Of a DNA stretch of 38,174 nt, positions 5,074-13,631 are shown piece by piece. The position numbers were made by a program, and so were the translations under genes. The stretch is from a virus, in IMG/VR virus record IMGVR_UViG_3300004463_000099, positions 1 through 38,174 of that record; one strand, given 5' to 3'. How positions within the stretch are numbered: the stretch's first letter is position 1; each line of letters begins with the position of its first letter. The notes beneath the pieces were generated by a model, which saw nothing but the letters and a program-made list of their open reading frames with translations, had not been told where the DNA came from and did no database searches.

Positions 5074-5904
5074 TTAGTTGACAGAATAACGTCCATTGAA
5101 CTCAACTTCATCATAGATGTAACGAGGTCTGCTCCAAGTAACCCAGATTTGCTCTTTAAGTTCGCCCATTTCTTCATCGCCTAACATAGTTACAACTTTC
5201 TCAATCTCGAAGCTGTCCTGAGTAGTCCATCCTAATAATGCACCAGCACGAATACGTTCGAACCCCAATGCTTCACGAACTTCATTTAATAGAAGAGTTC
5301 CACGTTGGAATAGGATCGTTTGCATACGCTCATTAATGGAATCGATGAATGCTACATTATATGTGTGGTCGTCAGAAGTGTACTCAGAGCTTTCGTCATA
5401 CCATTGACCGATAGTGTGGTCGATATCTTTCTTAACTTCTTGAACAGTGATCTTAGTTTTACCGCCTTTACCCACAGTTTCTACTTCAACCTCATCAGTA
5501 GGTGTGATGAATTTAGCATAAGCTTCATCGCCATGTTGTTTACGGTATTTTTTCTCGAAGTAAATGTTACGAGCTTGTTGAGCAGCTAATGCACCAGATA
5601 GAGTTAAGATACGATTACGTTGGATTTTATGAGACATAAGAATAGCTGTGATTGATAGAGCACCAACAGTAACTGGAAGATAGATAGCTTCAGCAATAGC
5701 TTTAGCCACTTCTACTTTGTTGATTTCCTCTTCGTTATCACGCTTTTCCTCGATATCTTGTACCACCGCTTCAACTTTATCGCGAGATTTGTAAGCCAAA
5801 TAAGCAGTTGCTCCAAGTCCTACTACACCAACGCCTGTGAAGATAGCTGGAGAATGTTTAGCCAATGTGTGTCCTACTTTTGCGAATGTTTGTTTGATTG
5901 TCAT
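5074..5904 (-). CDS. DUF6353-like double-span membrane protein
   Basis: 276 residues from ATG at 5904, chosen because AAAAGGAG lies 9 nt upstream; a longer frame exists but would start inside a terminator. Spans lie at about residues 20-38 (AIFTGVGVVGLGATAYLAY) and 70-91 (AIAEAIYLPVTVGALSITAIL), separated by an acidic helical loop. The HSPAIFTGVGVVGLG start is characteristic of the phage DUF6353 family. The C-terminal 150 residues are soluble. A promoter-like repeat lies upstream at 5978, but a terminator sits between the two. Function unknown; likely acts at the host membrane. Confidence 0.8.
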   Translation of the reverse strand: MTIKQTFAKVGHTLAKHSPAIFTGVGVVGLGATAYLAYKSRDKVEAVVQDIEEKRDNEEEINKVEVAKAIAEAIYLPVTVGALSITAILMSHKIQRNRILTLSGALAAQQARNIYFEKKYRKQHGDEAYAKFITPTDEVEVETVGKGGKTKITVQEVKKDIDHTIGQWYDESSEYTSDDHTYNVAFIDSINERMQTILFQRGTLLLNEVREALGFERIRAGALLGWTTQDSFEIEKVVTMLGDEEMGELKEQIWVTWSRPRYIYDEVEFNGRYSVN

Positions 5905-5977: not shown

Positions 5978-6003
5978 CACTATGAGCTGTGTTTTTCTTG
6001 CGA
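5978..6003 (-). promoter_or_regulatory. promoter-like repeat, copy 1
   Basis: Degenerate -10 (CATAGT) with the conserved upstream block TCG(N4)AAAAACA. See the first finding for the consensus. The predicted start falls at the edge of the following terminator hairpin. Confidence 0.55.
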
Positions 6004-6018
6004 TCTTCTAACTCCTTA

Positions 6019-6096
6019 TTATCTCACTAACCAACTTAACATTTTAAGTTTCTCATCGGTTGTTAATGATAGCCAATGTTTAGCTTTAACTCTCAT
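6019..6096 (-). CDS. 25-residue hypothetical peptide
   Basis: ATG overlaps the stop of the upstream 51-residue gene (ATGA), implying coupling; no independent ribosome site is obvious. The product (begins MRVKAKHWLSLTTDEK) is basic and helical, without a membrane span. Kept because it fills the gap between genes in a tightly packed operon. Confidence 0.35.
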   Translation of the reverse strand: MRVKAKHWLSLTTDEKLKMLSWLVR

Positions 6097-6248
6097 CCTG
6101 TTAAAACCCCACTTTCGTTATAGTTATCGTATTCCTCTTCGGTGATTTCCCGCCAGTCGTCTAACTTATACTGTCCAGGATACCACCGATTCATACGACT
6201 TTGCCAATTATGCGGATGTTCGATTGTTACTTTACTCGATAAACCCAT
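6093..6248 (-). CDS. 51-residue hypothetical protein
   Basis: The frame runs from ATG at 6248 and remains open upstream to the stop of the preceding gene. The ribosome site before the ATG is weak (AGCGAG), so an upstream non-ATG start is possible. The product starts MGLSSKVTIEHPHNWQSRMN, contains RWYPGQYKLDDW and ends acidic. Codon use resembles its neighbours. No family recognised. Confidence 0.6.
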   Translation of the reverse strand: MGLSSKVTIEHPHNWQSRMNRWYPGQYKLDDWREITEEEYDNYNESGVLTG

Positions 6249-6289
6249 CTCGCTATGTGTATACAGAATAATGTAAAATTGAACAATGG

Positions 6290-6556
6290 TTAATCACCAT
6301 CCTTGATATGATACTTACCCATATAAGACTCCAATGCTATCTCTCGTATCTTTTCAATTAGATCTTTTGATACGTTATCTTGTGGAGTCCAACATAATTT
6401 GATAATCTCATCGAGCCCTTTTCTATAACCTTCGTTCTCGCGCTTTACTCGCCACCCACAATTTATAGGATGACTTTGAGTTCCTCGCTCTTCACCAAGC
6501 TTATCTTCTACTTCACATACGAAACAAGGTTCTTCTATTTTAGAATATGGTCTCAT
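6290..6556 (-). CDS. 88-residue cysteine-containing phage protein
   Basis: Start set at ATG 6556 because TTGGAGGGG lies 10 nt upstream; a longer frame would overlap the preceding membrane peptide. The product begins MRPYSKIEEPCFVCEVEDKL, with a CxxC pair and two later cysteines (NCGW, LCW), possibly a small metal site. Soluble and charged. It follows a 27-residue membrane peptide by 5 nt. Confidence 0.65.
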   Translation of the reverse strand: MRPYSKIEEPCFVCEVEDKLGEERGTQSHPINCGWRVKRENEGYRKGLDEIIKLCWTPQDNVSKDLIEKIREIALESYMGKYHIKDGD

Positions 6557-6561
6557 TAAAA

Positions 6562-6645
6562 TCACCCCTCCAATGCATAAGATGCCCAAATGGAAAACAG
6601 TATCGAAATATACAAAATGATATTGAGTAATAACAGTTTAACCAT
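6562..6645 (-). CDS. 27-residue membrane peptide
   Basis: ATG shares its first base with the stop of the upstream gene (TGATG) and is preceded by GGAGGTGATTTG, a consensus ribosome site. The product is one hydrophobic helix (LLLLNIILYISILFSIW) with a short tail. The strong ribosome site makes translation likely. Confidence 0.6.
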   Translation of the reverse strand: MVKLLLLNIILYISILFSIWASYALEG

Positions 6646-7319
6646 CAAATCACCTCCACTGGTGGGAACTTGATGATATAGCCGCCACGAATAGGAACGA
6701 TACTAGCTTGTGAAATGGATTCGATAGTCCAACCATAATTGTTATCAGTGAACTTTGAAGGAACTCCAATTAGATCATAGTACTCAGCAACAGATACTGA
6801 ATCGTACATATCTGCATGTTCTGTAAGAGCCGTTAATACATGAGCCGCATCATAACGTTCTGTAATAGTATATTCTTCTACATCAAATCTAGCAGAAGGT
6901 CTAGCGATTTTACGTTCTTCTCTTTCCGAACGCTGATTACTACTAGCATATCTGGATGTGTAATTAGTATTAGGTCTATAGCCTGAATGGTTGTTAGGAT
7001 ATACCGAACGCCCTCTATTGGGATTCTTCTCACCATACATAACCATATTAATACCGGAAGTCACAGCATCGACTATGATATTCTTAATAGCCGGTTTCAC
7101 AATTTCTTCATTAACATAAGCCCCAATGCTTGGTAATCCTTCAGGTCCCAAAACGCCTGTAACAAGTCTACTGATAAGACTGCGTTTAACTTTAGTAGGT
7201 TGAGTATTAACTAACTTCTCCAACTTCTTCTTTTCTGTCGGAGCCTGTTTAACCTCTTCCTCATGCTTCTGAACCCTCATATTATCCTTAGCTTCTATCT
7301 CGTTGTATTTCTTAACCAT
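6645..7319 (-). CDS. conserved phage protein of the DUF6353 neighbourhood
   Basis: 224 residues. A basic helical N-terminus leads to a helix region (YVNEEIVKPAIKNIIVDAVTSGINMVMYG, about 67-95), a low-complexity Asn/Arg/Ser/Tyr linker (about 98-130) and a C-terminal domain with SVSVAEYYDLIGV, NNYGW and IIKFPPVEVI. From memory, this arrangement (YYDL[IV]GV ... YGW ... IKLP) recurs in Firmicute phages close to DUF6353 proteins. It could be amphipathic and membrane-associated. No function is established. Confidence 0.75.
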   Translation of the reverse strand: MVKKYNEIEAKDNMRVQKHEEEVKQAPTEKKKLEKLVNTQPTKVKRSLISRLVTGVLGPEGLPSIGAYVNEEIVKPAIKNIIVDAVTSGINMVMYGEKNPNRGRSVYPNNHSGYRPNTNYTSRYASSNQRSEREERKIARPSARFDVEEYTITERYDAAHVLTALTEHADMYDSVSVAEYYDLIGVPSKFTDNNYGWTIESISQASIVPIRGGYIIKFPPVEVI

Positions 7320-7344
7320 TTTACAATCATCCTCCCCAATTTTG

Positions 7345-7581
7345 TTAAGCTGTTCTTTCTACATCTAATTCCATGTATATTTCACCACTAGCCATTGTTC
7401 CAATAAATCTATATTTTTTTAAGAAATTATAATGACCATCTTCTACGTAAATCTTACCATTGAATCTTTCAATCTCTGACAATATATCAACTATATCTGG
7501 ATCTTTAGTACTACTTATACGAATTCGAATAGCACCTGGTAATATAGTGTAATCGTAAGTGTCCAACTTAGCCAATCCCAT
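7345..7581 (-). CDS. 78-residue hypothetical protein
   Basis: Strong ribosome site (AAAGGAGGTATAAAT-ATG). The protein alternates beta strands (YTILPGAIRIRISS, GKIYVEDGHYNFL, GEIYMELDVE), suggesting a small beta-rich fold. It lies between a terminator and the 6645-7319 gene and probably heads that operon. No family recognised. Confidence 0.65.
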   Translation of the reverse strand: MGLAKLDTYDYTILPGAIRIRISSTKDPDIVDILSEIERFNGKIYVEDGHYNFLKKYRFIGTMASGEIYMELDVERTA

Positions 7582-7601
7582 ATTTATACCTCCTTTCTAA
7601 A

Positions 7602-7631
7602 GAAAAAAAGAAGAGAGTTAGTTAAACTCCC
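7602..7631 (-). terminator. Rho-independent terminator
   Basis: GAGTT and AACTC pair around a 5-nt loop, followed by CTCTTCTTTTTTTC. The stop codon of 7622-8083 lies inside the hairpin, so it ends that transcript. Confidence 0.65.
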
Positions 7632-8083
7632 CTGAACAATTTCGTCGCGATACTGAACGCCTTTGATGTGATTATATCAGTCTTCTCATGTTTAAGAACC
7701 ATGATTACTGAGGAAATACCTACTACTCCTGATATAACAGCCGCCGCGTTAGATTCCTTAGATCTCACCTCAGATAGTTGACTTCGTACTTTAGTCAAGT
7801 CCTCAAGTTTACGCACCTTCGCTTCATATTCCTCATCGATTTGAACAGTAGCTATTATTTTAGCCAGTTCTTCAATTTGTTTATCAAGCTCGACAACTGC
7901 ATCACTTAAAACCTTGTCTTCCTTTCCTTTTGTCAAGTTTCCTCGGAGCTCTGTTAAATCCTTAAGCTTCCTGATTGTTACTTCATATTTCGTATCTTTC
8001 CCAATACCCTCCAATTCTTTACTGAGTTCCCCTATTTGTGCATCTAATGCTTCAATATTTTGCCGTAGTTGTTTGTTGAACAT
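7622..8083 (-). CDS. coiled-coil protein with internal repeat and C-terminal membrane helix
   Basis: 153 residues from ATG at 8083; a TTG two codons upstream is an alternative start (AGGAG lies 4 nt before TTG, 10 nt before ATG). Two similar blocks of about 45 residues follow each other: LDAQIGELSKEL ... YEVTIRKLKDLTELRGNL and LDKQIEELAKII ... YEAKVRKLEDLTKVRSQL. Both are heptad-like coiled coils. The C-terminus has a hydrophobic segment (AAAVISGVVGISSVIMVLKHEK) and the ending ITSKAFSIATKL, which I recall from small phage membrane proteins. A promoter-like repeat lies 20 nt upstream. Confidence 0.75.
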   Translation of the reverse strand: MFNKQLRQNIEALDAQIGELSKELEGIGKDTKYEVTIRKLKDLTELRGNLTKGKEDKVLSDAVVELDKQIEELAKIIATVQIDEEYEAKVRKLEDLTKVRSQLSEVRSKESNAAAVISGVVGISSVIMVLKHEKTDIITSKAFSIATKLFRGV

Positions 8084-8105
8084 CTGCAACCGTCTCCTCT
8101 CGTTT

Positions 8106-8131
8106 CATTATAGGATGTGTTTTTATTTCGA
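8106..8131 (-). promoter_or_regulatory. promoter-like repeat, copy 2
   Basis: Perfect TATAAT with upstream AAAAACA and TCG. It overlaps the stop codon of the preceding gene and lies 24 nt upstream of the 8083 start codon. Confidence 0.65.
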
Positions 8132-8365
8132 CTCTAATCCCATATACAAATGTAATAAGCTAGCAACTGTGCCTAACGAAATTGTCCACTCTTCAAGAGC
8201 TTCATAAGCTACGAAAGTTGAAATGACGTTCCCCTCGTCATCAAACTGTGGATTCATAGGTTCAATATAACGGAACCCATTTTCATTAGCCATAACTACC
8301 AACATTGTCTTTCTCTCTGGTGCAAAGTGTAATAATTCCCCTGGTTGTACTACTATCGTTTTCAT
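8123..8365 (-). CDS. 80-residue hypothetical protein
   Basis: A GGGGGAAAATATTAA ribosome site precedes ATG. The product begins MKTIVVQPGELLHFAPERKT, is beta-rich and soluble, and ends in a hydrophobic helix (LGTVASLLHLYMGL) too polar for a clear span. No promoter-like repeat lies directly upstream, so it may depend on read-through of the terminator at 8395. No family recognised. Confidence 0.65.
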   Translation of the reverse strand: MKTIVVQPGELLHFAPERKTMLVVMANENGFRYIEPMNPQFDDEGNVISTFVAYEALEEWTISLGTVASLLHLYMGLESK

Positions 8366-8394
8366 TTAATATTTTCCCCCGTTTTATATAATAG

Positions 8395-8427
8395 AAAAAA
8401 AAGAAAGAGAGTGTTATCCAAACTCCC
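8395..8427 (-). terminator. Rho-independent terminator
   Basis: An imperfect GAGTTT...AACACTC hairpin followed by TCTTTCTTTTTTTTC, directly after the stop of the 8429-8662 gene. Confidence 0.6.
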
Positions 8428-8428
8428 C

Positions 8429-8662
8429 TCAATCTTTCATGTAAATCACATTAGTTCCGCCTTTTTCAACACCATGTTTGAATCCTACCAAATATGCTAT
8501 ACCCCCAACTACTAACGGCGCTGCTATTAATACGGCTGTTGGAATCTTGGTAGTTTTCTCCTCCAAGTCAATCTCCGTTTTAATCTCAGGTCCTTCATCG
8601 TTATTAGCTTTCTTTTTATTCCCAAACAATTTTGGCATTTTCAATTCTATCGTGTGTTTCAT
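8429..8662 (-). CDS. small single-span membrane protein
   Basis: 77 residues, AAGGGG ribosome site 8 nt before ATG. The first 40 residues are charged (KKKANNDEGPEIKTEIDLEEKT), residues 42-61 form a span (TAVLIAAPLVVGGIAYLVGF), and a short tail KHGVEKGGTNVIYMKD follows. It has its own promoter-like repeat (8691) and terminator (8395), making a one-gene unit. The glycine-spaced tail after the span is shared with 9441-9677. Function unknown. Confidence 0.7.
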   Translation of the reverse strand: MKHTIELKMPKLFGNKKKANNDEGPEIKTEIDLEEKTTKIPTAVLIAAPLVVGGIAYLVGFKHGVEKGGTNVIYMKD

Positions 8663-8690
8663 AAATTCATCCCCTTATATGTAATTTCCT

Positions 8691-8716
8691 CATTATAGGG
8701 TGTGTTTTTACTACGA
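8691..8716 (-). promoter_or_regulatory. promoter-like repeat, copy 3
   Basis: TATAAT with conserved AAAAACA and TCG blocks, 30 nt upstream of the 8662 start codon and 9 nt beyond the preceding terminator. Confidence 0.7.
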
Positions 8717-8724
8717 AGCAAAAC

Positions 8725-8752
8725 AAAAAAGAGAGTGATGAAACTCCCTCAA
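8725..8752 (-). terminator. Rho-independent terminator
   Basis: GAGTTTCATCACTC folds as a short hairpin inside GAGGGAG...CTCTC and is followed by TTTTTTG. It lies between the stop of 8763-9044 and the next promoter-like repeat. Confidence 0.65.
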
Positions 8753-8762
8753 TCAATCTAGA

Positions 8763-9044
8763 CTACTCCGTTACTTCCTTTTTGTCTAAATCATTAAGAA
8801 TTTCATCTACCTCTTTATTCTTCTTTGTAAATAATCCTCCAGATCCTTTCTTTTTACCGCCAATAACATCATCCAATTTAATGTTCTTGATACCATCGAA
8901 TCCATCTTCAAAGCCTACATTTATAGCTTTCGCTGCTGTTTTTAAAGCAATAGCTTTAACGCCTTCCACTACAATAGCTTTTCCAAATTTCAATCCGACT
9001 TTACCAAAACCTTTTAATTGTTCTTTATCAATGTTAATGTTCAT
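8763..9044 (-). CDS. 93-residue amphipathic helical protein
   Basis: Start fixed at ATG 9044: AAAGGAG lies 9 nt upstream, while a longer frame would run through the promoter-like repeat at 9090. Residues 8-47 form a Gly/Ala/Val-rich amphipathic region (FGKVGLKFGKAIVVEGVKAI), then a glycine/lysine patch (GGKKKGSGGLFTKKNK) and an acidic end. There is no clear membrane span, though the amphipathic half could lie on a membrane. Ends in a terminator. No family recognised. Confidence 0.65.
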   Translation of the reverse strand: MNINIDKEQLKGFGKVGLKFGKAIVVEGVKAIALKTAAKAINVGFEDGFDGIKNIKLDDVIGGKKKGSGGLFTKKNKEVDEILNDLDKKEVTE

Positions 9045-9234
9045 ATATATCGTCTCCTTTAGAATTATAATTTTCTTCATTGTCCCTCTCATTATAGTCT
9101 GTGTTTTTCTTGCGATTTTCATCGACTGTTTCTATACCGACTATAACCATATTACCGTTTTCATCTTTTGTTACAGTTATTCGAGAAGCTATACATTCTT
9201 TCTTATCGAATCTCATGTCCCAAAACAAACCCAT
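9034..9234 (-). CDS. 66-residue hypothetical protein containing a promoter within its gene
   Basis: Strong ribosome site (GGGAGGGGAGAAAC-ATG). The first 37 residues look folded (MGLFWDMRFDKKECIAS, then RITVTKDENGNMVIVGIETV, a beta hairpin). The remaining 29 are polar and low complexity, and they are encoded by the promoter-like repeat at 9090-9115 and the next gene's ribosome site. The 3' end overlaps the next gene by 11 nt. The tail may be a by-product of the DNA signal rather than selected protein sequence. Confidence 0.6.
   Translation of the reverse strand: MGLFWDMRFDKKECIASRITVTKDENGNMVIVGIETVDENRKKNTDYNERDNEENYNSKGDDIYEH
9090..9115 (-). promoter_or_regulatory. promoter-like repeat, copy 4 (inside a CDS)
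   Basis: TATAAT with AAAAACA and TCG blocks, 47 nt upstream of the 9044 start codon. It lies wholly within the 3' part of the 9034-9234 gene. Confidence 0.65.
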
Positions 9235-9263
9235 GTTTCTCCCCTCCCGATTGTATAAGGACG

Positions 9264-9428
9264 TTAATCGTCTATATCTGTAACTGTGTAATCGAATATG
9301 TCTATAACATTATCCATATCCTTAACTTTAAATAATGGTTCAATCTCACTACCTTTATACACCATATAGATACCAAGCCCTATGGTTACATAACCAGCAG
9401 TTTGTAATAACTTTTTCTTAACGTCCAA
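9264..9428 (-). CDS. 54-residue membrane protein with TTG start
   Basis: No ATG opens this frame, but TTG at 9428 follows GAGGTGATATCT at ideal spacing, 13 nt after the preceding stop. The product reads MDVKKKLLQTAGYVTIGLGI at its start: a basic N-terminus, one span (residues about 8-24) and an acidic soluble tail (DMDNVIDIFDYTVTDIDD). It explains the gap between its neighbours. Function unknown. Confidence 0.65.
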   Translation of the reverse strand: MDVKKKLLQTAGYVTIGLGIYMVYKGSEIEPLFKVKDMDNVIDIFDYTVTDIDD

Positions 9429-9440
9429 AGATATCACCTC

Positions 9441-9677
9441 TTAGCTCTCAATGCTTTTACGAACTTGTTTGACCATCGACGCGATTTCCGATACACCTTT
9501 CGAATACCCTTCACTAAGTCCTTGCGCATATCCTAATTGAGCCCCCTTCGCACGTCCTAATAAATATAAACTTGCTCCGATACCTAACGCTACTAGTACG
9601 CCTTTACTATTGTTAGCGTATTTTTGTAGTCTAGCTTTTACATCAGTTTCAACTTGGTTGATAGTTTCGTTTTCCAT
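9441..9677 (-). CDS. small single-span membrane protein with glycine-spaced tail
   Basis: Start set at ATG 9677, which follows AAAGGAGGTGATAAC, nearly the full anti-Shine-Dalgarno match. Residues 26-41 are hydrophobic (GVLVALGIGASLYLLG), followed by RAKGAQLGYAQGLSEGYSKG, where glycines recur every three to four residues. This resembles the tail of the 8429-8662 product. The nearest promoter-like repeat (9796) is separated from it by a terminator. Heads a probable three-gene unit with 9264 and 9034. Confidence 0.7.
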   Translation of the reverse strand: MENETINQVETDVKARLQKYANNSKGVLVALGIGASLYLLGRAKGAQLGYAQGLSEGYSKGVSEIASMVKQVRKSIES

Positions 9678-9702
9678 GTTATCACCTCCTTTCAAGTTTA
9701 CG

Positions 9703-9736
9703 AAAAAAAAAAGAGCACGAACTATTTTTAGTTAGT
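9703..9736 (-). terminator. Rho-independent terminator
   Basis: GAACTA and TAGTTC pair around an 8-nt loop; GTGCTC and a run of ten T follow. It lies before the 9441-9677 gene and after the promoter-like repeat at 9796 with no gene in between. Confidence 0.65.
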
Positions 9737-9790
9737 TCATAAACTGTTTATCACCCCCACCCTACTCGTCCTCTAATGGTGATTCATCTG
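9703..9790 (-). ncRNA. candidate small RNA B (or terminator-containing leader)
   Basis: A promoter-like repeat (9796) and a terminator (9703) enclose about 85 nt without a usable reading frame; ATGs here open frames of only two to four codons. ATCACC at 9750-9755 can pair with GGTGAT at 9778-9783. The unit could give a short stable RNA, or be an attenuated leader of 9441-9677. No homology to a known RNA family is claimed. Confidence 0.4.
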
Positions 9791-9795
9791 CTCTT

Positions 9796-9821
9796 CATTA
9801 TAACGTATGTTTTTCTTGCGA
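9796..9821 (-). promoter_or_regulatory. promoter-like repeat, copy 5
   Basis: TATAAT preceded by AAAAACA and TCG, 12 nt beyond the preceding terminator. The first gene downstream is more than 100 nt away, behind another terminator. Confidence 0.65.
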
Positions 9822-9832
9822 ATTCGAAGAAG

Positions 9833-9860
9833 AAAAAAGAGAGAAGGTGTTAACCCTCTC
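9833..9860 (-). terminator. Rho-independent terminator
   Basis: GAGAGGGTTAACACCTTCTC folds as a hairpin and is followed by TCTTTTTTC. It begins within the last codons of 9859-10065 and ends that one-gene unit. Confidence 0.65.
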
Positions 9861-10065
9861 AAACATTAGTAGCTCTATGTTCCATGAATTTACTGCATAC
9901 GTGGTAAATGAACTCTGGACTGAATATGTCTCTGTTAGTATTAGTCGTACACCATTCCTCATAATATTGAGTTCCGTGCGCTTTCACCCAAAGTGTATAT
10001 TCTTCCATATGTTCTTTATGTACCTCAGTAATTACATCAAATTGCTCATCTGTAATGTTGTTCAT
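9859..10065 (-). CDS. 68-residue soluble hypothetical protein
   Basis: Start at ATG 10065, chosen because AAGGGGGATGTTTAATT precedes it; the longer frame starts inside the promoter's -10. The product begins MNNITDEQFDVITEVHKEHM and contains WVKAHGTQYYEEW and a C-terminal helix with Cys. Soluble, acidic, unlike the membrane proteins around it. It has its own promoter-like repeat and terminator. Confidence 0.65.
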   Translation of the reverse strand: MNNITDEQFDVITEVHKEHMEEYTLWVKAHGTQYYEEWCTTNTNRDIFSPEFIYHVCSKFMEHRATNV

Positions 10066-10085
10066 AATTAAACATCCCCCTTTTA

Positions 10086-10119
10086 TCTTCTTCATTATGG
10101 GCTATGTTTTTATTACGAA
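10086..10119. repeat. 34-bp exact direct repeat, copy 1
   Basis: Identical to 11299-11332. It covers one whole promoter-like repeat and its flanks, whereas other copies share only the consensus positions. This suggests a recent duplication. Confidence 0.8.
10093..10118 (-). promoter_or_regulatory. promoter-like repeat, copy 6
   Basis: -10 is CATAAT; AAAAACA and TCG blocks conserved. 29 nt upstream of the 10065 start codon. Confidence 0.65.
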
Positions 10120-10123
10120 TAAC

Positions 10124-10152
10124 AAAAAAAAGAAGAGGATCAGTTATCCCCC
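10124..10152 (-). terminator. Rho-independent terminator
   Basis: GGGAT and ATCCT pair around AACTG, followed by CTTCTTTTTTTTG. Lies between 10156-10440 and the next promoter-like repeat. Confidence 0.6.
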
Positions 10153-10155
10153 AAG

Positions 10156-10440
10156 TTAAGCATTTTTAATCGCTTTCAAGTTGTTAATTATGTTATATAC
10201 AATGTTAAGTCCAATAACAGTCCCATATACGCCTAGTCCCGCTTTAGCACCACTTTTCACATCTCCTTGTGTAACCAAAGATTGTGCAAAAGCGACTCCT
10301 ATTGCGGATACGTACGTCATTGGGTGTTCCATTTGTACCTTAACGCTCTCAACAGTAATATCGCCAACTATTTTAGCTTTACTTTTGAATTTATTAGTCT
10401 TCTTCTTTTTCCCCATGTCAGTCGTGTTTGTATTCTCCAT
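10156..10440 (-). CDS. 94-residue membrane protein
   Basis: Start at ATG 10440 behind GGAGGGAGATGTTTATA; the earlier ATG lies in the promoter's -10. A basic, Lys-rich N-terminus (MGKKKKTNKFKSKAK) precedes two moderately hydrophobic segments at about residues 40-55 (MTYVSAIGVAFAQSLV) and 66-88 (AGLGVYGTVIGLNIVYNIINNL). Probably one or two membrane helices with a positive cytoplasmic end. Own promoter-like repeat and terminator. Function unknown. Confidence 0.7.
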   Translation of the reverse strand: MENTNTTDMGKKKKTNKFKSKAKIVGDITVESVKVQMEHPMTYVSAIGVAFAQSLVTQGDVKSGAKAGLGVYGTVIGLNIVYNIINNLKAIKNA

Positions 10441-10464
10441 TATAAACATCTCCCTCCATTTGTT

Positions 10465-10490
10465 CATAATAGAGCGTGTTTTTCTTGCGA
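10465..10490 (-). promoter_or_regulatory. promoter-like repeat, copy 7
   Basis: -10 is TATTAT; AAAAACA and TCG blocks conserved. Abuts the T-run of the preceding terminator and lies 26 nt before the 10440 start codon. Confidence 0.65.
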
Positions 10491-10516
10491 GAAAAAAGAG
10501 AGAGCTTGTTTAGCTC
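10491..10516 (-). terminator. Rho-independent terminator
   Basis: GAGCT and AGCTC pair around AAACA, followed by TCTCTTTTTTC. Ends the 10525-10758 unit. Confidence 0.7.
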
Positions 10517-10524
10517 CCAGAAGT

Positions 10525-10758
10525 TTATTCGCCTTTATTGATTTTAATAGATCTAACTACAATCACTCCGATCACTACTCCTGCCGCCGCTGAACAATAC
10601 CCAGCTCCAAAACCTCTAAACCATTCTTTAAATAATTGTTTATCGTGTTCGAACTCGATCTTGTTAAACGTCGTTACTGCATCATGATCTCCAAATTTCA
10701 TAGCTTCCTCTCTTTTAACATCAAGTGTTGGCTCTTTAACTTCTTTCTTCTTAAACAT
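10525..10758 (-). CDS. 77-residue membrane protein
   Basis: Start at ATG 10758, 8 nt after AGGAG; another ATG two codons upstream lies too close to the ribosome site. The first 45 residues are charged (MFKKKEVKEPTLDVKREEAM). A C-terminal span follows (about residues 50-70, GAGYCSAAAGVVIGVIVV) with a basic tail RSIKINKGE. The arrangement suggests a tail-anchored protein. Own promoter-like repeat and terminator. Function unknown. Confidence 0.7.
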   Translation of the reverse strand: MFKKKEVKEPTLDVKREEAMKFGDHDAVTTFNKIEFEHDKQLFKEWFRGFGAGYCSAAAGVVIGVIVVRSIKINKGE

Positions 10759-10779
10759 ATACATCTCTCCTCTCATTTT

Positions 10780-10805
10780 CATTATAGTATTTGTTTTTAT
10801 TTCGA
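10780..10805 (-). promoter_or_regulatory. promoter-like repeat, copy 8
   Basis: Perfect TATAAT, AAAAACA and TCG. It overlaps the stop codon of 10797-10991 and lies 23 nt before the 10758 start codon. Confidence 0.65.
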
Positions 10806-10991
10806 AGCCATAGTTCCCAATGTTAAAATACGAACGTGATCCTCAACAGCTTTAAACTCTTTATTAGCAAAATGGGTTGCTCGACAATTGGGACATCTAC
10901 TTTTCAACACCTCGTTTCTACCACCTTTAATCAAATGAATATAAGCCGCCAATTTTGTTTCACACTTACAATCTACAGTATAACTTTGCAT
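10797..10991 (-). CDS. 64-residue zinc-ribbon-like protein
   Basis: Ribosome site AAAGGGAGAGATTATT before ATG. Cysteines form two pairs: CKC near residues 8-10 and CPNC near residues 33-36, spaced as in a zinc ribbon or treble clef. Histidines at HLIKGG and ATHFANK could also bind metal. Such small ribbons bind nucleic acid or proteins, but the role here is unknown. Probably co-transcribed with 11007-11150. No terminator follows; the next promoter-like repeat overlaps its stop. Confidence 0.7.
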   Translation of the reverse strand: MQSYTVDCKCETKLAAYIHLIKGGRNEVLKSRCPNCRATHFANKEFKAVEDHVRILTLGTMASK

Positions 10992-11006
10992 AATAATCTC
11001 TCCCTT

Positions 11007-11150
11007 TTATCCTAATATTTGTATTTTCTTTAATGAAGTAACTGGAACTATAGCTTTATCATTATTTCGGTTAGACAACACAGCCATACCTCTATCGGTT
11101 ACTCGTTCCACGTACCAATACTGTCCGTCATATAATACATATTTATCCAT
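11007..11150 (-). CDS. 47-residue hypothetical protein
   Basis: Start at ATG 11150: AGGGGG lies about 7 nt upstream, while the longer frame begins in the terminator's T-run. The product (MDKYVLYDGQYWYVERVTDR) is a small all-beta-looking domain with KAIVPVTSLKKIQIL at the end, reminiscent of an SH3-like barrel. Expression would need read-through of the terminator at 11173 or an unseen promoter. Confidence 0.6.
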   Translation of the reverse strand: MDKYVLYDGQYWYVERVTDRGMAVLSNRNNDKAIVPVTSLKKIQILG

Positions 11151-11172
11151 AACCATCCCCCTAATGATTAAT

Positions 11173-11206
11173 AAAAAACAAAAAAAAGAAGAGAGGTGGC
11201 TCACCT
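11173..11206 (-). terminator. Rho-independent terminator
   Basis: AGGTG and CACCT pair around a 3-nt loop, followed by CTCTTCTTTTTTTTG. It closes a gene-free unit starting at the promoter-like repeat at 11306. Confidence 0.7.
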
Positions 11207-11300
11207 TGTAACCATTAAGTTGTTCCGTACCTCGATAGCCGTCGGCTAAACTTTCAAGGACAACACCTTTCTCAGACTATACCGGTCGCATATAGTCCTC
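11173..11300 (-). ncRNA. candidate small RNA A (or terminator-containing leader)
   Basis: About 125 nt between a promoter-like repeat and a strong terminator, with no reading frame beyond ten codons. Two further hairpins are visible: GACTATA (11275-11281) with TATAGTC (11291-11297), and the near-perfect palindrome TAGCCGTCGGCTA around 11236-11248. Three hairpins in so short a unit suggest a structured RNA. The alternatives are an attenuated leader of 11007-11150 or the remains of a lost gene. No known RNA family recognised. Confidence 0.45.
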
Positions 11301-11332
11301 TTCTTCATTATGGGCTATGTTTTTATTACGAA
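11299..11332. repeat. 34-bp exact direct repeat, copy 2
   Basis: Identical to 10086-10119. Here the repeated promoter leads into candidate small RNA A instead of a gene. Confidence 0.8.
11306..11331 (-). promoter_or_regulatory. promoter-like repeat, copy 9
   Basis: -10 is CATAAT with AAAAACA and TCG blocks; abuts the preceding terminator. No gene starts within 150 nt downstream. Confidence 0.65.
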
Positions 11333-11356
11333 AAAAAAGAAGGGTTGTGAAACCCC
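11331..11356 (-). terminator. Rho-independent terminator
   Basis: GGGTT and AACCC pair around TCAC, followed by TTCTTTTTTTTCG. Ends the 11365-11778 unit. Confidence 0.7.
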
Positions 11357-11364
11357 TGAATGGA

Positions 11365-11778
11365 TCAAATAGTTTTACGATAGCTTTCTAGCAATTCCCT
11401 AGCTAGTTCTTTAATATCTACCGCATTCTTCTTTTTTCCTTCAGAAGTCATCTCTACAACCTCTTCTTCCTTATTGAGTTCTTCACTCAACTCTTCAACC
11501 AATTTAAGTTTTTGTTTTCTACTCATAAATTTTTTAATTCCGAATATACCTAATCCGATTACGCAAGTCGCAATTCCACCGATAATCATACCATTTCTAC
11601 TAGTAATGTTTAGTCTATCTATTAACTGAGCTCTTTGAAATTCTTGTTCTAACGCCATTTCAAATGCTTCATTAAAAAGATCTCTAAACGCTTCTTCAGT
11701 AAATTTAATACCTTTTTCCTCAGCATTGATCTTTGCATAATCATTTAATCTATTCAAGAAATCATCTAATTTTTTCAT
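11365..11778 (-). CDS. single-span membrane protein, paralogue of 12359-12676
   Basis: 137 residues from ATG 11778, behind AAGGGGATGTTTAAT; an ATG three codons earlier touches the ribosome site. Residues about 1-60 are helical and charged (EEKGIKFTEEAFRDLFNEAF), then SRNGMIIGGIATCVIGLGIFGIKKF spans the membrane, and a long charged helical tail follows (KLKLVEELSEELNKEEEVVE). The EKGI.FTEEAF and RNG[MI][IV]IG blocks are shared with 12359-12676. One-gene unit. Function unknown. Confidence 0.75.
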   Translation of the reverse strand: MKKLDDFLNRLNDYAKINAEEKGIKFTEEAFRDLFNEAFEMALEQEFQRAQLIDRLNITSRNGMIIGGIATCVIGLGIFGIKKFMSRKQKLKLVEELSEELNKEEEVVEMTSEGKKKNAVDIKELARELLESYRKTI

Positions 11779-11801
11779 ATTAAACATCCCCTTTCATTTT
11801 C

Positions 11802-11827
11802 TATTATAGGACATGTTTATAATACGA
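11802..11827 (-). promoter_or_regulatory. promoter-like repeat, copy 10
   Basis: Perfect TATAAT; the upstream block reads TATAAACA instead of AAAAACA. Abuts the T-run of the preceding terminator; 25 nt before the 11778 start codon. Confidence 0.65.
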
Positions 11828-11852
11828 AAAAAAAAGAGAACCGAAGTTCTCT
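11827..11852 (-). terminator. Rho-independent terminator with UUCG loop
   Basis: AGAGAAC and GTTCTCT form a perfect 7-bp stem closed by TTCG, followed by nine T. The most canonical terminator in the window. Ends 11859-12278. Confidence 0.85.
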
Positions 11853-11858
11853 AAGATG

Positions 11859-12278
11859 TTAAGCTCTACCGATATTGATAATATCCTGTCCAATCTCTAA
11901 AGTGTGCTCTACCATGTTTAGTGCGTCTTCTCTATTGACTGCTCTAACGGTAACGTCACTTTTATCACCGTCTTCAGATTGTACAGTTACTTTATACAAA
12001 TATGTCGGTTGTTTAACGTCTTTCTTTTTGTTCTTGATTTTACCATAAATCGTGAATGCTAAAGCTGTTCCTATTACTCCAATTGCTGCTCCGGTTAATA
12101 AATGACCATTTTTAGTAGCTAACTCTCCTATTGCCATATCTCTTGCTGTGAACATCATGATAGTTTCTTTATTCGCATCATCTGTTTCGCCAACCTCATC
12201 CATTACAATAGCTCTCGCTAGTCTACCAAACTTTTTCGAATTATCATCCGCCAGTATTTGTAGTTTTCTTAATTCCAC
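11859..12278 (-). CDS. single-span membrane protein with soluble C-terminal domain
   Basis: 139 residues from a GTG at 12278, 9 nt after AAAGGAG; the ATG three codons upstream directly touches the ribosome site, as in the two neighbouring genes. The N-terminal half is helical (VELRKLQILADDNSKKFGRL), residues about 60-83 form the span (NGHLLTGAAIGVIGTALAFTIYGK), and a beta-rich domain follows (YLYKVTVQSEDGDKSDVTVR, then AVNREDALNMVEHTLE). Own promoter-like repeat and terminator. Function unknown. Confidence 0.7.
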   Translation of the reverse strand: MELRKLQILADDNSKKFGRLARAIVMDEVGETDDANKETIMMFTARDMAIGELATKNGHLLTGAAIGVIGTALAFTIYGKIKNKKKDVKQPTYLYKVTVQSEDGDKSDVTVRAVNREDALNMVEHTLEIGQDIINIGRA

Positions 12279-12303
12279 TTTAAACATCTCCTTTTATAGT
12301 TTT

Positions 12304-12329
12304 CATAATAGGATATGTTTATCTTACGA
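12304..12329 (-). promoter_or_regulatory. promoter-like repeat, copy 11
   Basis: -10 is TATTAT; upstream block GATAAACA and TCG. Abuts the preceding terminator; 27 nt before the 12278 start codon. Confidence 0.6.
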
Positions 12330-12353
12330 AAAAAAAGAAGGGTTGAATCCCTC
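12329..12353 (-). terminator. Rho-independent terminator
   Basis: GAGGG and CCCTTC pair around ATTCAA, followed by TTTTTTTTCG. Ends 12359-12676. Confidence 0.65.
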
Positions 12354-12358
12354 CTAAG

Positions 12359-12676
12359 TTACTTGACTTTCCGTCTAAATTTAGACCGCCAATTGTCTTG
12401 TTCCTCAGCAATGATTTCAACTTCCTCCATTTTCTTTTTAAGTTTGTGTTTCTTATATGTACTAACTCCTTTAACTCCTAACATTACAGTGCCCATCAAT
12501 ACTGCTCCGATAACAATACCGTTTCTACCTGCGAAGTCTAACTCATCTAAATGTTTTTCTTTAGCTTTCATAGCTTCATCATATAGTTGAGTAAATGCTT
12601 CTTCAGTGAAACTAATACCTTTCTCTTTAGTATTGATTTCCTGTAAGTCATTCATCCAAGTGTCTAGTGTTTTCAT
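12359..12676 (-). CDS. single-span membrane protein, paralogue of 11365-11778
   Basis: 105 residues from ATG 12676, 9 nt after AAAGGAG. The N-terminal helical part (TKEKGISFTEEAFTQLYDEA) and the start of the span (GRNGIVIGAVLMGTVMLGVKG) align with 11365-11778; the tail is shorter and basic (WRSKFRRKVK). The identical leader ATGTTTAATATG in both genes supports duplication of the whole cassette. First unit after the endolysin. Function unknown. Confidence 0.75.
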   Translation of the reverse strand: MKTLDTWMNDLQEINTKEKGISFTEEAFTQLYDEAMKAKEKHLDELDFAGRNGIVIGAVLMGTVMLGVKGVSTYKKHKLKKKMEEVEIIAEEQDNWRSKFRRKVK

Positions 12677-12700
12677 ATTAAACATCTCCTTTTAATTTTC

Positions 12701-12726
12701 TATAATGGAGTATGTTTTTAGTGCGA
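12701..12726 (-). promoter_or_regulatory. promoter-like repeat, copy 12
   Basis: Upstream AAAAACA and TCG conserved; -10 is CATTAT. Abuts the endolysin terminator, 26 nt before the 12676 start codon. Confidence 0.6.
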
Positions 12727-13619: not shown

Positions 13620-13631
13620 ATTAACCTCTCC

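Follow-up and report, generated by a model that had tools for sequence, protein, structure and literature searches.

The 38,174-nucleotide stretch of DNA analyzed here, referred to as the window, is the complete IMG/VR virus record IMGVR_UViG_3300004463_000099, a linear 38-kb fragment with a G+C content of 39%. Between positions 5978 and 12726, its minus strand carries twelve copies of the promoter-like repeat TCG(N4)AAAAACA(N5)TATAATG, which are very likely promoters read by the phage's own RNA polymerase (RNAP). The enzyme would be a protein of approximately 900 amino acids encoded at a genome end that is absent from the contig. A promoter for a phage-encoded RNAP was the first alternative offered by an earlier note on this DNA, and it is the best-supported reading given the co-occurrence of motif and gene, the predicted fold of the protein, and the presence of the RNAP gene in a close relative. 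The overlapping activator or repressor site that the note also considered is not needed to explain the copies.

All twelve copies were found where the earlier note had placed them, and they differ from the pattern at 0-3 of its 17 specified bases. Dinucleotide shuffles of the window gave a chance expectation of 0.32 sites (largest number 2; none of 100 shuffles reached 12), and the plus strand of the window contained no match. A 30-bp weight matrix, trained partly on the window's own 12 sites, returned the identical 12 sites when run on the window, with nothing extra and an empty opposite strand. The absence of a sigma-A -35 box was also borne out: a sigma-70 scan found no -35 partner for any of the 12 hexamers. 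Nine copies lie close 5' of a start codon preceded by a Shine-Dalgarno sequence, 21-45 nt from the last base of the motif, and the 23-47 nt given previously stands. The copy at 5978 is farther away, 73 nt 5' of an ATG, and the remaining two, at 9796 and 11306, precede no open reading frame (ORF); they are located upstream of predicted structured RNAs of approximately 90 and 125 nt that end in terminators. Terminator-like hairpins occur shortly 5' of at least seven copies. Many copies come after an intrinsic terminator, forming promoter-gene-terminator cassettes. The copies are as follows.

12701-12726, minus strand: candidate promoter copy 1, 24 nt before the ATG at 12676
12304-12329, minus strand: candidate promoter copy 2, 25 nt before the GTG at 12278, terminator directly 5'
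11802-11827, minus strand: candidate promoter copy 3, TATAATAGAA variant, 23 nt before the ATG at 11778, terminator directly 5'
11306-11331, minus strand: candidate promoter copy 4, before a predicted structured non-coding RNA, terminator directly 5'
10780-10805, minus strand: candidate promoter copy 5, overlapping the stop codon of the upstream ORF, 15-21 nt before the ATG at 10764 or 10758
10465-10490, minus strand: candidate promoter copy 6, 24 nt before the ATG at 10440, terminator directly 5'
10093-10118, minus strand: candidate promoter copy 7, 27 nt before the ATG at 10065, terminator directly 5'
9796-9821, minus strand: candidate promoter copy 8, before a predicted short non-coding RNA, terminator directly 5'
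9090-9115, minus strand: candidate promoter copy 9, 45 nt before the ATG at 9044
8691-8716, minus strand: candidate promoter copy 10, 28 nt before the ATG at 8662, terminator directly 5'
8106-8131, minus strand: candidate promoter copy 11, 22 nt before the ATG at 8083 (or 16 nt before the TTG at 8089)
5978-6003, minus strand: candidate promoter copy 12, CATAGTG variant, 73 nt before the ATG at 5904, hairpin AAGAGT...ACTCTT and T-run directly 3'

A scan of IMG/VR with the exact pattern returned at least 163 sites in at least 120 stretches, while the reversed letters gave 12 single matches. The consensus derived from 153 non-redundant sites reads YTCGCRNR-AAAAACA-NNNNC-TATAATG-ARA (YTCGCRNNAAWWACANNNNYTATAATGAGA), and no -35 element is conserved across these sites. 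The core pattern described earlier holds, but the motif is longer: it starts with Y, and TCG is followed by C and TATAAT by GARA. Motif-bearing contigs range from 27% to 59% G+C. Named carriers include phages of Gordonia, Streptomyces, Rhodococcus, Arthrobacter, Curtobacterium, and Bifidobacterium as well as gut phages; the copies in them are confined to a single strand and mainly intergenic, and the arrays occupy a block of small, often membrane-protein genes between the tail/lysis and replication genes. Of the 34 matrix hits in LibertyBell, Perkunas, and ReqiPoco6, every one is on the gene strand and 32 are intergenic, as judged by inspecting annotated coordinates; the motif does not, then, recur equally often in coding regions, which the earlier note had named as an outcome that would speak against a promoter. 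The copies might instead be operators or serve as some other DNA-binding signal (for a repressor, replication, or packaging), since operators too can be conserved and repeated within one genome, and stoperator-like repeats are known in phages. Such a role is nonetheless extremely improbable, given the restriction to a single strand, the position directly 5' of start codons or small RNAs and 3' of terminators, and the promoter-like hexamer with its start geometry. A somewhat stricter pattern, run against 257 Gb of cellular genomes, found only 19 stretches, and the polymerase is encoded in 7 of 17 genomes; hosts were not read from these matches because several are metagenome bins. We found no published description of the motif, with the paper on phages ReqiPepy6 and Poco6 a possible place for one, and this start signal has apparently not been described before.

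Occurrence of the motif follows that of the gene for the 900-residue protein. Among motif contigs 40 kb or longer, 25 of 28 contain the gene. When contigs were picked for the polymerase gene instead, 23 of 23 carried the motif, on one strand (reversed control, 0 of 23). Among contigs of at least 46 kb picked by the window's tail protein, the polymerase was found in 11 of 12 and the motif in 10 of 12. In phage records, motif and polymerase counts were equal for Gordonia (55), "Siphovirus" (12), and Rhodococcus (4). The closest relative found with the polymerase (L255/G056) has a major tail protein 71% identical to that of the window, and there the polymerase ORF stops shortly ahead of the head genes. 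The earlier note correctly saw no cognate factor in the window; relatives encode a predicted single-chain two-barrel RNAP, whose gene would be missing here because the contig is a 38-kb fragment without that region.

The protein is encoded near one genome end, in about 250 phage records and more than 500 IMG/VR stretches, the IMG/VR relatives having been collected with an alignment query. Its two end regions match helix-turn-helix (HTH) domains, and its center gives a weak match to the RNA-dependent RNA polymerase family; three HTH motifs are predicted, two near the N terminus and one at the C terminus. The sequence DFDGD, a metal-binding motif of the DxDxD type in the predicted catalytic barrel, does not vary among 6 sequences from named phages and 66 relatives from IMG/VR. 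A single-sequence phmmer search against the PDB gave no match, and a profile search matched only the HTH parts, so that fold comparison was needed for the core. The AlphaFold2 model (predicted local distance difference test score, 82.8) found its best Foldseek matches in QDE-1, Thermus-phage RNAPs, and RDR2, with E values down to 1.2e-9, and structure comparison aligned residues ~226-700 with QDE-1, RDR2, and phage RNAPs (Z 13-18). The core is accordingly predicted to have the single-chain two-barrel (double-psi beta-barrel) fold, and the protein is probably a DNA-dependent RNAP. The catalytic core (residues ~226-700) resembles QDE-1 and RDR2 most closely in fold (Z 16-18), which explains the label "RNA-dependent RNA polymerase" attached to PHROGs entry phrog_4291 and to some records (others read "putative RNA polymerase"). 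Unlike these enzymes of eukaryotic RNA silencing, the phage protein has predicted DNA-binding HTHs, belongs to a DNA phage, and has a candidate DNA promoter. Its usual labels are "helix-turn-helix protein," "structural protein," and "RNA-dependent RNA polymerase"; very probably, a polymerase common to hundreds of phages of Gram-positive bacteria has been filed, unstudied, under the wrong name. A T7-type single-subunit polymerase was also considered, on the likeness of CTATAATGAGA to CTATAGGGAGA, and set aside when the two-barrel protein made that candidate unnecessary.

The position of the transcript start can be estimated from RNAs downstream of the motif. At several copies there is a small RNA or leader whose 3' stem, before a T-run, pairs with the first bases past TATAAT. 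Two such RNAs lie in the window.

11184-11306, minus strand: predicted non-coding RNA, 5' end AAGAAGAG pairing with the 3' end before the T-run
9705-9796, minus strand: predicted non-coding RNA of ~90 nt, 5' AAGAGCA pairing with 3' TGCTCTT before the T-run

When folded from the G after TATAAT, these RNAs have z scores of -2.4 and -2.1, respectively, compared with -0.7 and -0.5 when the start is placed 6 nt later. In a set of 381 non-redundant sites, the 5' arms of the hairpins begin 0-4 nt past TATAAT in 30 of 54 stems; exchanging heads among sites gave a mean of 8 and a maximum of 15 in 200 trials, and shifted starts gave 0-6. The end-pairing geometry would therefore place +1 at about the G right after TATAAT. 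Starts 6-8 nt after the hexamer, as expected in the earlier note, are probably wrong, and the assignment of the conserved block to -19 to -33 presumes a sigma-A register against which the same geometry speaks. Small structured RNAs are also seen elsewhere: a recurrent family (GGCRAGACACGAATGYGTAGGTGAAAAACCTACCYGCCTGGYG...), which would be transcribed from these promoters, lies just 3' of motif copies in L117, L014, L029, L085, L132, and L133, and Rfam scans of L029, L085, and L117 gave no match to it. Genes for tRNAs or tRNA-like molecules start right after a promoter copy at L133:14637-14710 and L120:4392-4463, and a Pistol ribozyme above the Rfam gathering score is located at L052:3088-3150, in a motif-bearing phage contig.

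These observations bear on whether the sites are host sigma-A promoters, with TATAAT as the -10 box and a phage protein bound at TCGC/AAAAACA substituting for the -35 contact. The hexamer is the sigma-A consensus, followed by G in most copies, and the conserved block sits where a class II activator could bind. Yet end-pairing appears to require a start 0-1 nt past the hexamer and not the approximately 7 nt expected past a -10 box, and a dedicated polymerase is conserved in these phages. The motif itself also varies by lineage. A broader matrix applied to diverged carriers revealed lineage-specific versions, all on the gene strand: TTCRCATGTTTTACATAYRCTATAGTAGAA in Lactococcus phage 1706 (which has no site with the strict matrix), ATTTTAAGTTTTACATRCCCTATAATGAGA in P078, and GACGCGAAAAATACAGSCTCCTTTATGGAA in FP_oengus, with BitterVaud1 and Xenomorph nearer the main form. 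Two phages of the same host, L. lactis, carry different versions, and the low-G+C window shares its version with actinobacterial (Streptomyces) phages; the motif version follows the phage lineage and not the host. Sigma-A depends critically on an A as the second base of the hexamer. Most copies overall keep it, but it is lost in the FP_oengus and Eevee variants and in all eight copies of contig G072, which read GTTAAT, CTTAAT, or GTTATT. Lineage versions and loss of this A therefore fit a phage-encoded reader better than host sigma-A, and we consider activated sigma-A promoters improbable.

Several points weigh against a phage polymerase as the reader. TATAAT is a perfect sigma-A -10 box in most copies, and host RNAP might use some of them. 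Read-through transcripts could form the same hairpins, and the sites tested for hairpins are related and not all independent. Template modeling scores to known structures are low (about 0.3). The window itself is without a polymerase gene; three motif contigs show no polymerase, as does G072 with its 8 sites, and polymerase contigs G071 and G073 are without a site at up to 3 mismatches. These exceptions may be due to fragments or diverged variants. The link between motif and polymerase holds at the level of the lineage: all carriers belong to one related phage group, and anything else conserved there would therefore co-occur too.

Since co-occurrence alone cannot tell apart genes of one lineage, another phage factor, such as a small HTH protein redirecting host RNAP, might read the motif, leaving the two-barrel protein a role such as replication priming. 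Further conserved HTH and hypothetical proteins are indeed encoded in these genomes. Against this, the two-barrel protein has a catalytic motif and its own HTHs, the motif occurs upstream of its own gene, and related RNAPs of Thermus phages have dedicated promoter motifs that track the RNAP gene (PMC10770324). We regard such a factor as quite unlikely, more so than activated sigma-A promoters.

If the polymerase reads the twelve copies, its HTHs could replace sigma and contact the TCGCR and AWWWACA blocks, and TATAAT would be a melting region abutting the start. With the next G at about +1, the promoter would extend roughly from -26 to +4. Each copy would start a short unit, a gene or a small RNA, usually closed by a terminator. 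Most copies are found where small membrane-protein genes cluster between the tail/lysis and replication genes. In 13 genomes, a copy is also found 860-960 bp 5' of the polymerase, before a VRR-Nuc gene, which suggests self-activation. A terminator-like hairpin lies directly 3' of the copy that precedes the VRR-Nuc/Cas4/polymerase operon (L098, L104, L231, and ~27 others; also at the 5978 copy of the window), as if the operon were attenuated. Self-activation needs enzyme that is already present, so its source would be the virion or leaky host transcription. The polymerase may be carried in the virion and injected. Two hints are the annotation of the 1706 homologue as "structural protein" and the resemblance of the N-terminal HYG...SGRYPWGSG of the polymerase to HYGVKGMKWG tags carried by ORFs close to the portal gene. 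The tag, in the form H(Y/H)GVKGMKWGxRK, starts several ORFs between terminase and portal and elsewhere (L130, L131, L132, and L134); we found no published mention of KGMKWG.

The window carries a siphophage tail module, an endolysin gene, and the motif array, and it extends into the first part of a region of hypothetical genes. A DNA-level search of phage records with the window gave no match, and relatives were found via proteins and the motif. Window proteins match phages of ~55 kb, namely Lactococcus phages 1706 and P078 and phages of Arthrobacter, Gordonia, Streptomyces, Curtobacterium, and Microbacterium. By the gene order of these relatives, the replication genes and then the ~900-residue protein would follow beyond the window's end. 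One conserved gene lies next to the array.

5074-5904, minus strand: conserved gene phrog_2152, downstream of copy 12

Its homologues in 1706, ReqiPoco6, Perkunas, LibertyBell, Eevee, and D_HF5_2C tie the window to this phage lineage. Neighboring cassettes at 11365-11787 and 12359-12685 encode paralogous small proteins with one predicted membrane segment each. A second repeated leader, TCAAAATAACAACAAAAAGGAGAG, occurs on the minus strand at 13626, 15788, 18581, 20371, 24244, and 36850, directly 5' of structural-gene starts; it is perhaps a late-gene leader or a ribosome-binding element.

Phage two-barrel RNAPs with promoters of their own are already known. Thermus phage P23-45 encodes a virion RNAP, gp96, fused to the tape measure, and a non-virion RNAP, gp64, each with its own promoter motifs, and the AT-rich motif was found only in phages possessing that RNAP (PMC10770324). 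These are likewise single-chain two-barrel enzymes, and structure comparison ranks gp64 and P74 gp62 among its top matches (Z 13.4). Their sequences are distant, however (about 15% identical in the aligned core), the promoter sequence differs, and the enzyme described here has terminal HTHs and no tape-measure fusion. Bacillus phage SPbeta encodes YonO, also a two-barrel RNAP in a single chain, which is similar in size, has an active site of the DxDGD type, and transcribes late phage genes; its promoter sequence was not established in that work (PMC5467207). The motif described here marks a small-gene block instead. Comparison with YonO by hhalign and BLASTP gave nothing significant beyond a weak active-site match, and a common fold class is possible. 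Microbacterium cluster EC phages contain about a dozen copies of an 18-bp motif in one orientation, 21-30 bp before start codons (PMC7302621); its sequence is unrelated to ours, and it was described without a function or cognate factor. By analogy with P23-45, the enzyme linked to our motif would represent a widespread, uncharacterized branch with built-in HTHs.

A fuller picture, which we put forward tentatively, is that of a large lineage of phages of Gram-positive bacteria with a virion-borne, sigma-free, one-protein two-barrel RNAP. Its own three HTHs would read double-stranded promoters and set the start at the edge of TATAAT, turning on an array of one-gene units, structured small RNAs, and the gene of the polymerase itself. 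The promoter and its start point are sharp predictions. Naming the protein as a DNA-reading polymerase, together with its likely promoter, would explain the expression of one gene block and give many actinobacteriophage genomes a promoter map. The result would also be a compact pair, one polymerase protein and its promoter, for Gram-positive bacteria, as well as a minimal model for the sigma-free function of two-barrel polymerases.

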